Origin: Paraoerskovia sediminicola
GTDB lineage: Bacteria > Actinomycetota > Actinomycetes > Actinomycetales > Cellulomonadaceae
Direction: 5' to 3'
Length of the DNA: 64,000 bases
NCBI RefSeq assembly: GCF_030296575.1
Contig: NZ_AP027729.1
Coordinates: 1,736,001-1,800,000 of the forward strand
The notes beneath the pieces were generated by a model. That model ran no database searches, was not told where the DNA came from, and saw only the letters and a list, made by a program, of their open reading frames with translations. Shown piece by piece: positions 29,808-39,311 of this stretch (position 1 is its first letter; every line of letters starts with the position of its first letter). The position numbers and the translations under genes are program-made.

Positions 29808-32244
<2,437 letters not shown>

Positions 32245-34293: not shown

Positions 34294-36086
34294 TCACGAC
34301 CGCGGCGGGAACAGGGCGTGCGGACGGTTCTTCCCTGTCCACCCGAGAAGGTTGAACCGGCCGGGCGAGGTGCCCGGAGCGACCGCGGCGGTCGGTGTCG
34401 AACCGCCGGAGGCGCCGGCACCGCCCATGCCGGGCCCTCCTCGCCGTCGAGCTCGCAGCCGAGCTCCTCCAGCGCGGCCGCAGACTCGCGGTAGGCGGGC
34501 GGGATGATGTGGCGGTCCGCGTAGTCGGCCTTGGTGAGCAGCTTCTGGAGCGCCGTGAGGTCGGGCCCGCTCATGCCGACGGCAGCGGCGATCTCGGGGT
34601 CGACCTTCGAGCGGGCGCCACCGCGGGCGCGGGCCCCTCGGACCCGCGGCGCCGGCTTCTCGGGCTCCGGCGGGGCAGCCGGTGCAGCGGCGCCGGACGC
34701 CGTGGCTTCCGTCGGCGCACCAGGTGCAGCCGGTGCACCGGTGGTCGCCGTGGTCGACTCGGCAGACGAGGCGGCTGGTGCAGCGGCGCCTCCCGACGTC
34801 GGCCGCGCTGCGGGCTTCGCTGCGGGCCTCGGCCCTGCGAACGCCGTCCGCACCGCGACGAGGCGCCGCAGCACTCGGGCCGCGACCGCGCGATCCCCCG
34901 CGGTGAAGAGCTCGGCGAGGTAGGCGACCGGCGCCTCCAGGCGGTCGATCGCGGCCGACAACGTCGCGAAGTCCTCGCCGTCCGCCCCGCTCGCCGCGAC
35001 GACGTCCGCCACCGGGGAGACCGGCGGGACGTACCAGACCATGGGGAGCGTGCGGTACTCGGGGTGGAGCGGCAGGGCGACCTCGAACCGGCTGATCAGC
35101 GCCCAGATCGGTGACATCTGTGCTGCGAGGACCCACTCCTCCGGGATCCCCTGCGCCGCGGCCGCGGCGACGACGTCCGGGGCCTCGGGGTCGAGGAACA
35201 CCGACCGCTGCGCGTCGAGGAGGTCCTTCTCGTCGGCGACCGACGCGGCCTCGGCCACGCGGTCGGCGTCGTAGAGGACCAGGCCGATGTAGCGCAGGTG
35301 GCCGACGCACGTGTCGGAGCACAGGGTCGGTTCGCCCTGCTCGATGCGCCCGACGCAGAGCGTGCACTTCGTGGCCTTGCCGGTCACGGGGTTGAGATAG
35401 ACCTTCTTGTACGGGCAGGCGGGGACGCAGGCGCGGAACCCACGGCATTGCGCGTCGTCGATGAGGACGATCCCGTCCTCCACCCGCTTGTACATCGCGC
35501 CCGACGGGCAGGCCGCCACGCACGCGGGGTTGAGGCAGTGCTCGCAGATGCGGGGCAGGTAGAACCTGAACGCCTGCTCGAACTCCTCGGTCACGTGCTC
35601 GCTCATGTGGGTCAGCACGGGGTCGGCGGCGACGGACTCCGCCGGCTCCGGCTCCGGCCGCTCGGGCTTCGGGCCGTTCGCCCCGGTGCCGGCGGACTCG
35701 ACCGTCGGCCCGTCGACCCGGCTCTGCAGCACGGAGGACCACGGGGCGTCGTAGTCGGTGACCAGGGGCATGCGGGGCTGGGCGAAGAGCCGGGCGAGCT
35801 GCGCCGTCCGACCACCGCCGCGCAGGCGCAGGCCGTGGCTAGCCGCGGCCGCCCGCGAGGAACCGCCCTCGCTGCCCGACCGGACCTCCCAGCCGCCCTG
35901 CCAGCGGTCCTGGTCCTCGAACGCGTACGGGTAGCCACGGCCGGGCCGGGTCTCGACGTCGTTGAACCACATGTACCGCGCGCCCTCGTGGGCGGTGTAC
36001 GCCTGCTTGCAGGCGACCGAGCACGAGTGGCAGCCGATGCACTTGTCGAGGTTCATCACCATCGACATCTGAGCCATCACGCGCAC
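34294..36086 (-). CDS. Second NarH-like nitrate reductase beta subunit, with one apparent frameshift
   Basis: A full-length paralogue of NarH, about 597 residues after repair. It starts at GTG 36086 (MRVMAQMSMVMNLDKCIGC) with GGGAG seven bases upstream. All cluster cysteines are present: CIGCHSCSVACK, CEHCLNPACVAACP, CRGFRACVPACP and CTLC with CSDTC. Residue 217 is Phe where NarH has Trp (218 in the neighbouring copy), at the position that gives the [3Fe-4S] cluster. An Ala/Pro/Thr-rich insertion of about 80 residues (roughly 415-495) replaces a short conserved loop. One missing base at 34430-34434 shifts the C-terminus, whose restored end is FNLLGWTGKNRPHALFPP. It follows narI and has no alpha subunit of its own. 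Confidence 0.87.
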
Positions 36087-36135: not shown

Positions 36136-36884
36136 TCAGACCTTGGGCCGGCTCGACGGGTCCCACCCGGGCGCTCCGCGCGCGAGCTGATCGCCGCGTC
36201 GCGCGACCGGTACACGATGAACGGGCGGAACAGGTAGGGCACCGGCGCGGAGAACGCGTGCACGAGCCGCGTGAACGGCCACAGCATGAACAGGGCGTTC
36301 GCGGCGAGGATGTGCAGCTTGAACGCGAGCGGCACCCCGGCCATGAGGGCCGGCTCGGGCTGGAAGTACCAGAGGCTGCGGAACCACGGCGAGATGGTCT
36401 CGCGGTAGTCGTACCCGTGACCGCTCGCGATGATCTGCGTCTGGATGGTCGCCCACGCGCCCACCAGGATCGACGCCGCGAGGAACACGTACATCGTCTT
36501 GTCCATACGCGTCGTGGCGAGGAACACGGGGCCGGTGGTGCGGCGGCGGTAGATGAGGATCAGCAGCCCGACGACGACCGCGACGGCGCCCAGCGAGCCC
36601 ATCCAGGTCGCGACGAAGTGGTAGGCGGTCTCGCTGACCCCGACGGCCTCGGTCCACGACTTCGGGATCACGAGCCCCACCAGGTGGCCCACGATCACCA
36701 TGAGCAGGCCCAGGTGGAACAGGGGCGAGCCCAGGCGCAGCAGACGCCGCTCGTAGAGCTGGCTGGAGCGCGTCGTCCACCCGAACTTGTCGTAGCGGAA
36801 CCGCCAGAACGTCCCCACGACGAACACGGCGAACGTCACGTACGGCACGACCACCCAGAGCAGGATGTTCAACGTGTTGCTCAT
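36136..36884 (-). CDS. narI: Respiratory nitrate reductase gamma subunit NarI, with one apparent frameshift near its end
   Basis: The membrane cytochrome b subunit that oxidises menaquinol and passes electrons to NarH; about 249 residues. It has five helices. The four haem-ligand histidines lie in PLFHLGLLMVIVGHLVG and KLHILAANALFMLWPFTRLVHAFSAP (two each, in separate helices). The frame as given runs on into the next gene, an apparent NarI-NarH fusion. A single base added in CCCGGG at 36166-36171 restores the normal end ERPGWDPSSRPKV and a TGA at 36136. The second narH has its own start and ribosome-binding site. It overlaps narJ by ATGA. Confidence 0.9.
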
Positions 36885-37641
36885 CGACGGATCTCCTCAG
36901 CCGGGGCGCCGGTGGGCGCGAACGGTGCGAGCGGGCCGGCCTCGTGCGGGCCCAGAGCGGTCAGGCCGACCATCTCGGTCGGGGGCCGGCCGTCACGAGC
37001 TCGACGAACCGGGCGTGGGTGCGCGCGTCGAGCGCGGGGAGCGTCAGGCACACGGCCTCGACGACGTCCGTCCACGGGCTGCGCATCGCGGCGAGCGCGG
37101 ACCGCAGCACCTCGATGCCCTCGCGGTGCGTGCCGAGCAGACCCGCCGCGATGCGTGCCTCGTCGTCGCCAGTCGAGCGGGCCGAGAGCTCGAGGACCGT
37201 CGGCAGGTGGTCGGGCAGCTCGTCGCCGTCGACCTCCCACCCCGCGGCCCGGTACGCCTGGACGAACCGCACGAGCGCCATGCCGCGCTTGCGGGTGTCG
37301 CCGGTCGCGAAGTACGAGAGGTACATCGAGCACTTGCGCTTGAGGTCGAACGTCTGGACGTACAGGGCCTCCAGCTCGTGGGGGTCCGTCGTGGCGAGCA
37401 CGTCGAGGAACCGGGTCAGGCGCTCTGCGACCGGCGCGGGGAGGCCGGGGACGGCGTCCCGCACCACGGGCACCGCCGCGCGGACCTCCGCGTCGGGGTA
37501 GCCGAGGAGCAGGGACGCTGCCATGTGCGTCGTGCGGCGCTGCGCGTCGGTCGCCGCGACCGGCGTGAGCGGCTCGAGCTGCGGAGCCCGGGCCGTCGGC
37601 TTCGGCAGGAACGTGGTCGCGCCCCCGCCCCGCGGGCTCAT
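36881..37641 (-). CDS. narJ: Nitrate reductase assembly chaperone NarJ, with one apparent frameshift
   Basis: A NarJ chaperone, about 253 residues after repair, needed to insert the molybdenum cofactor into NarG before membrane docking. The core is AASLLLGYPDAEVRAAVPVV, LEALYVQTFDLKRKCSMYLSYFATGDTRKRG and ADELPDHLPTVLELSA-like sequence. The frame breaks at 36981-36985 (five C on the coding strand, six needed); after one added base it continues GPPTEMVGLTALGPHEAGPLAP and ends at 36881. The start and stop each overlap a neighbour (narH, narI) by four bases. Confidence 0.9.
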
Positions 37642-39311
37642 CGTGGGGCCGTCCCGTCGGTCACGGGGTTGGACCCACCGGTGTCGGACGGCGGGAACAG
37701 GCCCTCGGGGGAGCCGTTGCCGTCCCAGTTGAGCAGGTTGACGCGGCCGGACGACGAGGGCTGGTCCGCCGTCTGACGGTTCTTGAGCGCGTGGAAGTTC
37801 TCCACCGCCACGGGCGCCGGCGTGCCGGACGACGAGCCGAACGGCCCGGCGCCGCCCATGCCCGGGCCGCCTTCGAAGTCGAGGGAGCAGCTGAGCTCCT
37901 CGAGCTCGCGGGCGATCTCCTGGTGGGCCGTGGGGATCACGTAGCGGTCCTGGTACTTGGCGATCGCGAGCAGCCGGTACATCTCCTCGACCTCCGTGCC
38001 CGTCATGCCGACGGCCTCCGCGATCGATTCGTCGGGCTCCTTGCCGAGGTTGATGTCGCGCATGTACGAGCGCATCGCGGCGAGCCGGCGCAGCGTGCGC
38101 TCGACGGGCACCGTGTCGCCCGCCGTGAACAGCCCGGCGAGGTACTCCAGGGGGATGCGGAGCTTCGAGATCGCCGCGAACAGCGTCCTCGGGTCCTCCG
38201 CGTCGTTGCCCGACGTGCCGACGACGTCGACCACCGGCGACAGCGGCGGGATGTACCAGACCATCGGCATCGTGCGGTACTCGGGGTGGAGCGGCAGCGC
38301 GACCCGGTACTTCTGGATCAGCGACCAGATCGGCGAGGCCTGCGCGGCCTCGATCCAGTCGTCCGGGATCCCCTCGGCGCGCGCGGCCTCGACGACCGCG
38401 GGGTCGTTCGGGTCCAGGAACACCGAGCGCTGGGACTCGAGCAGGTCGTGCTCGTTCTCGACCGCCGCGGCCTCGGAGACCTTGTCCGCGTCGTACAGCA
38501 CGAGGCCGAGGTAGCGCAGGCGGCCGACGCAGGTCTCCGAGCACACGGTCGGCAGGCCCACCTCGATGCGGGGGTAGCACATCGTGCACTTCTCGGCCTT
38601 GCCGGTCTTGTGGTTGAAGTAGACCTTCTTGTACGGGCAGCCGGTGACGCACATGCGCCAGCCGCGGCACTGGTCCTGGTCGACGAGGACGATCCCGTCC
38701 TCGGCCCGCTTGTACATCGCACCCGAGGGGCACGACGCGACGCACGCCGGGTTGAGGCAGTGCTCGCAGATGCGCGGCAGGTAGAACATGAACGTCTGCT
38801 CGAGCTCCTCCGCGACGTGCTCGCTCATGTGCTGGAGGATCGGGTCGTCCTGCATCGTCTCGGTCGAGCCGCCGAGGTCGTCGTCCCAGTTCGCGGACCA
38901 CTCGATGTTCATGTCGTCGCCCGTGAGCAGCGACTTGGGCCGGGCTACAGGCGTGTGCTCGCCCTGCGGCGCCGACAGGAGCATGTCGTACTCGTACGTC
39001 CACGGCTCGTAGTAGTCGTGGATCGACGGCATCTTCGGGTTCGAGAAGATCGTCGCGAGCTTGCGGAACCGCCCGCCGGCGCGGAGCTTGAGCTTGCCGC
39101 GCTTGGTGCGGACCCAACCGCCCTGCCACGTCGACTGGTCCTGGTAGGTGCGCGGGTAGCCGAGGCCCGGCCGCGTCTCGACGTTGTTGAACCACACGTA
39201 CTCGGTGCCCGTGCGGTTCGTCCACGCCTGCTTGCAGGTGACGGAGCACGTGTGGCACCCGATGCACTTGTCGAGGTTCATGACCATCGACATCTGCGCC
39301 ATGACCTTCAT
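37638..39311 (-). CDS. narH: Respiratory nitrate reductase beta subunit NarH
   Basis: A 557-residue iron-sulfur subunit that wires NarI haems to NarG. Four cluster motifs are intact: CIGCHTCSVTCK, CEHCLNPACVASCP, CRGWRMCVTGCP with Trp218 in place of a fourth Cys (the [3Fe-4S] site), and CTMC with CSETC. HPEYRTMPMVWYIPPLSPVVD is the usual structural segment. It starts at ATG 39311 after GAGGAGCG, 58 bp after narG, and overlaps narJ by ATGA. This is the orthodox NarH, unbroken in the sequence, against which the second copy can be judged. Confidence 0.97.
   Translation of the reverse strand: MKVMAQMSMVMNLDKCIGCHTCSVTCKQAWTNRTGTEYVWFNNVETRPGLGYPRTYQDQSTWQGGWVRTKRGKLKLRAGGRFRKLATIFSNPKMPSIHDYYEPWTYEYDMLLSAPQGEHTPVARPKSLLTGDDMNIEWSANWDDDLGGSTETMQDDPILQHMSEHVAEELEQTFMFYLPRICEHCLNPACVASCPSGAMYKRAEDGIVLVDQDQCRGWRMCVTGCPYKKVYFNHKTGKAEKCTMCYPRIEVGLPTVCSETCVGRLRYLGLVLYDADKVSEAAAVENEHDLLESQRSVFLDPNDPAVVEAARAEGIPDDWIEAAQASPIWSLIQKYRVALPLHPEYRTMPMVWYIPPLSPVVDVVGTSGNDAEDPRTLFAAISKLRIPLEYLAGLFTAGDTVPVERTLRRLAAMRSYMRDINLGKEPDESIAEAVGMTGTEVEEMYRLLAIAKYQDRYVIPTAHQEIARELEELSCSLDFEGGPGMGGAGPFGSSSGTPAPVAVENFHALKNRQTADQPSSSGRVNLLNWDGNGSPEGLFPPSDTGGSNPVTDGTAPR

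Follow-up and report, generated by a model that had tools for sequence, protein, structure and literature searches.

A second NarH-like gene, here called narH2, lies directly after narI in Paraoerskovia sediminicola and keeps all the cluster cysteines of NarH. Judged by alignment, its product is rebuilt in the very region through which NarH reportedly connects to NarG, and in one congener it occurs beside narI with no narG found. NarH2 is a diverged paralogue of NarH that is apparently restricted to the genus. The reading that we favour, if tentatively, is that NarH2 docks on NarI and relays menaquinol electrons to an acceptor other than NarG.

A second NarH gene follows narI

The window (the whole 64,000-nt stretch that was analysed) carries the following features, all on the minus strand.

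34294..36086, minus: narH2, second NarH-like beta subunit; GTG start at 36086, stop at 34294 via a second frame
36086-34437, minus: intact frame of narH2, 550 aa, followed by a frame break near 34434
35646..35750, minus: remodelled linker, the counterpart of NarH residues 101-148 in an alignment that is gappy here
35415..35447, minus: CRGFRACVPAC with Phe217 (Phe codon TTC at 35438-35436)
34611..34844, minus: Ala/Pro/Thr-rich low-complexity segment, about residues 415-492
36136..36884, minus: narI, gamma subunit, dihaem cytochrome b; usual C-terminus in another frame, break near 36150
36961..37641, minus: narJ; apparent frame change close to the 3' end (by inspection)
37638..39311, minus: narH, ordinary beta subunit, 557 aa
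39370..43254, minus: narG, in seven pieces and three frames in this assembly

narH2 adjoins the 3' end of narI on the minus strand and starts with GTG. The window NarH2 and the neighbouring NarH share 59% identity across 466 codons; with this identity and the same gene in two further species, the likeness of NarH2 to NarH is far above chance. NarH2 of Paraoerskovia marina is 65% identical to that of the window. The best PDB match of NarH2 was 1Q16 chain B, that is NarH (E 6e-124), and a recognisable Fer4_11 core was present. All three NarH2 proteins fell below the cut-off of the narH equivalog model TIGR01660 (524.05 bits), with 512.5 bits for the window copy (truncated at the frame break), 485.3 for P. 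marina and 518.9 for the congener G001, two of them missing it narrowly, by 5 and 12 bits; the window's ordinary NarH scored 780.9. For PF14711, NarH2 gave 50-54 bits versus 104 for NarH. AlphaFold models of NarH2 and NarH, built on 35-row alignments, had mean pLDDT values of 59.3 and 58.3, too poor for use. An assembly duplication of narH was considered and rejected, because the copies share about 59% of their residues and orthologues of narH2 occur in two further species.

An earlier note on this DNA had described a complete extra beta subunit without a second narG or narI. The second NarH-like gene does follow narI, and the genome has a single narI (one PF02665 match) and a single narG (in pieces), but narH2 is not complete in one frame. 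Its 550-codon part has no stop codon; the NarH frame ends near 34434, and position 34294 can be reached only by changing frame, the C-terminal tail ...RFNLLGWTGKNRPHALFPPRS lying in the other frame and ending at the stop at 34294. Upstream, a single open frame (36884-33996) runs from narI straight into narH2 with no stop between them in narI's own frame, and the usual NarI ending, ...GWDPSSRPKV-stop, is present in a different frame, matching ...GWDPTGRPDV of Cellulomonas sp. PhB143.

Such breaks are not confined to narI and narH2. Among the 40 kin proteins matched to the window, 12 spanned more than one frame; two of these were NarH/NarH2 cross-matches, and the other ten mapped to six places, namely narG, narK, mog, the mod genes and two others (named by inspection). 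Repeating this count in the kin regions fetched gave 0 of 31 in G001, 0 of 39 in G003 and 3 of 45 in P. marina (G002), all three being NarH/NarH2 cross-matches. Completeness of the window genome is 87.6%, versus 98-99% for its three congeners. Because frames also break at six other places of the window and not in the kin genes, we infer that the frame breaks, including those of narI and narH2, are assembly indels. Gene calls of this indel-rich genome need care. The breaks are spread over window positions 25319-47278, with six junctions in narG alone, and the kin genes are intact. Separately, thirteen copies of a 6-base unit (30206-30284) lie inside a modC-like gene and add a Thr-Gly run.

Cluster ligands, Phe217 and the insert

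In NarH, 15 cysteines ligate three [4Fe-4S] clusters and one [3Fe-4S] cluster, an assignment that draws in part on passages of PMC5338063. The 15 cysteines that are near-invariant among 84 ordinary NarH were all present in each of the three NarH2, bearing out the earlier claim that every cluster cysteine of the neighbouring NarH is kept. The residue differences claimed were also there to be read: NarH2 has CRGFRACVPAC (Phe217) where the neighbouring NarH has CRGWRMCVTGC (Trp218), including PAC for TGC. A base-calling error is an unlikely source of Phe217, because TGG to TTC requires two base changes. It was not conserved across relatives, a point that the note had proposed to check: Trp occupies the site in 84 of 84 ordinary NarH and in the NarH2 of P. 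marina and G001, and Phe occurs in the window only. Trp at this site of NarH leaves the fourth cluster as [3Fe-4S], and Phe is likewise not a cluster ligand. Changing the matching cysteine of DmsB to Trp, Phe, Tyr or Ser yields a [3Fe-4S] cluster each time, so Phe need not alter the cluster type.

The Ala/Pro/Thr-rich insertion of the earlier note is present at about residues 415-492, but its length is not conserved. The stretch between fixed landmarks is 82 residues in the window NarH2 versus 12 in NarH, a net gain of 70; the net gain is about 32 in G001 (hand count on the alignment) and 9 in P. marina, which makes the insert a spacer of low complexity whose length differs among NarH2. Phe217 and the insert were both tried as defining traits of the paralogue and set aside, because the other two NarH2 have Trp and shorter inserts.

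Near-invariant positions are lost in the linker to NarG

As a reference we used the 202 alignment columns that are at least 97% conserved in the 84 ordinary NarH, a biased sample made up of the best 80 of 199 loci similar to NarH2 plus the window, with a few partial sequences (e.g. L035). Ordinary NarH keep at least 188 of these columns, the lowest value coming from a partial one, and NarH2 keeps 166 in the window, 164 in G001 and 159 in P. marina. Twenty-five columns were lost in all three NarH2, and these were clustered: 12 of the 16 conserved columns within residues 101-150 were lost versus 13 of 186 elsewhere (Fisher p 1e-9, for a region picked after the losses were seen). The remaining common losses comprised four at 25-33, three at 234-247 and six from 385 to 457, with none in residues 51-100, 151-225 or 251-375. 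A sentence in section 3.3 of PMC5338063 describes, for E. coli NarH, a linker that joins the two cluster subdomains and makes an extended connection with NarG; the role of the linker is taken here from that sentence, with residues placed by alignment. On this placement, it is the described connection to NarG that has been rebuilt in NarH2. Some likely contacts persist, since the C-terminal tail RFNLLGW (RVNLLNW in NarH) is retained.

These losses bear on the possibility that NarG has NarH2 as an alternative partner. An alternative NarG-NarH2 complex was one of three options in the earlier note; with NarI it would make a NarG-NarH2-NarI enzyme with shifted cluster potential. In both the window and P. 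marina, narH2 comes right behind narGHJI, which would suit such a role, as would the retained cluster core and tail. However, the common losses are concentrated in the NarG linker, Phe stands at the cluster site in only one of the three NarH2, and G001 has narI and narH2 with no narG found. We therefore disfavour this option and consider it unlikely.

Distribution and phylogeny

Six NarH2 peptide patterns were scanned over 84,980 species genomes; 199 relatives were confirmed and the best 80 kept. Among these best 80 of 199, a second NarH directly after narI was seen once, in P. marina DSM 21750 (L012), so that the order narGHJI-narH2, which the earlier note suggested looking for in related genomes, does recur. 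Two NarH genes lay far apart at three other loci, L045 (on opposite strands), L071 and L077. In the latter two, from Streptoalloteichus, some 7 kb separates two ordinary NarH genes of the same strand, perhaps members of tandem nar operons.

Within the genus, narH2 was present in three of the four genomes examined. The window species and P. marina have narGHJI and narH2, G001 has narI and narH2 only, and G003 has narGHJI with no second NarH match within the 37.9-kb region examined. The motif CVPACPYxK occurred in three of 221 family genomes, which are the three NarH2 carriers, and in two of 396 order genomes sampled (the window and P. marina; G001 was outside the sample), in a search that would overlook any NarH2 without the motif. 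The search for distant NarH2 relied on motif and family matches, and that for low-scoring second NarH proteins of other genera on the motif alone. In another family member, G110, the sole NarH C-terminal match listed was very weak (E 5.6e-6) and could be a diverged or broken NarH.

The three NarH2 formed one clade (support 100/100) with long branches. Forcing NarH2 together with the NarH of the genus was not rejected (p-AU 0.323). The duplication that gave rise to NarH2 may be older than the genus or may have arisen within it.

In G001, narI and narH2 occur with no narG found

The window and P. marina encode NarH2 alongside a NarG; G001 does not. The G001 locus reads moaC, an acidic ORF, moaD, narI and narH2, with mog, a helix-turn-helix gene and mod genes next (moa, mog and mod names by inspection), and narI starts 7 bp past the moaD stop. 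In P. marina and G003, narG comes next after moaD, so narG, narH and narJ are exactly what the G001 locus misses. Completeness of the G001 genome is 98%, and the contig with this locus is 402 kb long, its end being about 17 kb away. In tblastn over the 28.9-kb locus, no narG, narH or narJ was found, only the narH/narH2 cross-match and weak matches (E at least 0.001), and the genome-wide family search found no narG and no ordinary narH. The latter search returned one NarI, one NarH C-terminal family match (at narH2, of the low-scoring NarH2 kind) and two Molybdopterin-family proteins, neither of them NarG: one best matches NasC (646.6 bits, below the NasC model cut-off of 1100) and the other is NuoG-like by inspection. 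The narH2 genes of G001 and P. marina contain no stop codons, and narI of G001 is intact as well. All this comes from one genome, G001, which may have lost narGHJ recently.

NarI of G001 (L087:7691-8383) is without the tail after YRSR, including the GW motif. This loss is suggestive only, because GW is found at the NarI tail in just 48 of the 73 ordinary NarI examined. The acidic ORF between moaC and moaD in G001 encodes 154 aa (L087:6981-7445), and a shorter counterpart of 109 aa precedes moaD in G003.

Selective constraint

Pairwise dN/dS, computed by the Nei-Gojobori method with our own script on these GC-rich genes, was 0.32-0.49 for narH2 versus 0.15-0.21 for narH. Controls, computed inside genes, gave 0.22-0.29 for nuoG and 0.19-0.30 for nasC. 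narH2 is constrained, yet less so than narH, nuoG and nasC. For narI the values were 0.18-0.23 among the window species, P. marina and G003 and 0.51-0.66 against G001. On the G001 branch, where values are three-point differences and only contrasts are meaningful, dN/dS was about 0.42 for narH2 and about 1 for narI, with 0.23-0.36 for nuoG and 0.26-0.35 for nasC.

To locate the changes in G001 NarI we took columns where the other three genomes agree. By falling conservation, 2 of 45, 6 of 26, 22 of 59 and 19 of 31 columns were changed, i.e. 2 of 45 near-invariant columns versus 47 of 116 others (p 2e-6). A freely drifting gene would not spare the near-invariant columns, and the fast change points to remodelling with function kept; this reading is not final, since part of the G001 branch may predate the loss of narG. 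On these figures narI and narH2 of G001 are both under constraint, if less so than housekeeping genes.

We weighed against this the possibility that narH2, and in G001 the narI-narH2 pair, are operon leftovers heading for decay. The absence of narH2 from one of the four genus genomes, the branch dN/dS of G001 narI, the faster evolution of narH2 than of nuoG and nasC and the frame break in the window copy would all fit. On the other hand, narH2 is stop-free in P. marina and G001 and over 550 codons in the window, no cysteine has been lost, its dN/dS is well below 1, the near-invariant columns of G001 NarI are spared, and frame breaks also strike six other places of the window. We regard decay as quite unlikely. 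The earlier note had argued against simple decay from the retained ligands, and the cysteines and dN/dS of narH2 agree with it; as refuting evidence it had named a gene missing from close relatives combined with a dN/dS close to 1, and of these the first was found in one of the four genomes and the second was not found.

Possible role of NarH2

The path of electrons from menaquinol through the NarI haems to the iron-sulfur clusters is established for NarH. In the reading that we favour, NarI would oxidise menaquinol, and the electrons would pass through its two haems into the four-cluster chain of NarH2, whose ferredoxin core ligands are kept, and from there to an acceptor other than NarG. They would have to go elsewhere because NarH2 is without the NarG-connecting residues and no NarG was found in G001. 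NarGH and NarH2 would share one NarI in P. marina and the window species, and in G001 NarI would serve NarH2 alone. That NarI and NarH2 touch, that electrons flow in this direction and that another acceptor exists is what we infer here from sequence comparison. Against such a relay, the branch dN/dS of about 1 for G001 narI by itself fits relaxed constraint, and narH2 is under weaker constraint than nuoG and nasC.

A stronger form, which we hold to be doubtful though worth stating, is that NarI and NarH2 constitute a freestanding menaquinol dehydrogenase, cut loose from its own molybdenum catalytic subunit and feeding a different cytoplasmic acceptor. If this is true, the four genomes would show its different states, with no NarH2 in G003, a shared NarI in the window species and P. 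marina, and an independent pair in G001. No acceptor of NarH2 was found among the other Molybdopterin-family proteins of G001, which have counterparts in G003, a genome without narH2. NasC-type and NuoG-type proteins occur in all four genus genomes; NasC was considered as an obvious acceptor and dropped, being present in G003.

NarH2 might instead be an assembly or regulatory factor of the nitrate reductase complex. Its place beside narJI and its kept cluster ligands would be compatible with this, but G001 has no NarG or ordinary NarH found to assemble, and G003 has narGHJI without narH2; we think this very improbable. Of the three options in the earlier note, a homologous electron-transfer protein comes closest.

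If the relay to another acceptor is real, these congeners make up a natural series: the half of nitrate reductase that delivers electrons was duplicated and then kept without the enzyme. Such a series would allow a direct test of which other acceptors NarI and a NarH are able to reduce.

Comparison with known systems

Respiratory molybdoenzymes are regarded as modular, and a beta-gamma pair without an alpha subunit is, to our knowledge, unusual. In the open-access PMC literature we found no description of a NarI-NarH pair without NarG or of an orphan second NarH. NarH2 resembles NarH (1Q16 chain B; TIGR01660) in its ferredoxin core, its 15 conserved cysteines and its location by narI. It differs from NarH in falling under the TIGR01660 cut-off, in the loss of near-invariant linker positions and in being kept in G001 with no NarG found. 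With the type II and DmsB-like iron-sulfur subunits of the DMSO reductase family it has the Fer4_11 core in common, but the window NarH2 is far under their cut-offs (248 of 480.7 bits for TIGR03478 and 104.6 of 214.1 for DmsB). Streptoalloteichus (L071, L077), like the window genome, has two narH genes in one genome. A second NarH in one genome is also found with second narGHJI operons: Bacillus azotoformans has narG2H2J2I2, with the second NarH within a full second operon, according to a passage of PMC3475470. Unlike that case, only narH is doubled here, and narI-narH2 can stand alone.
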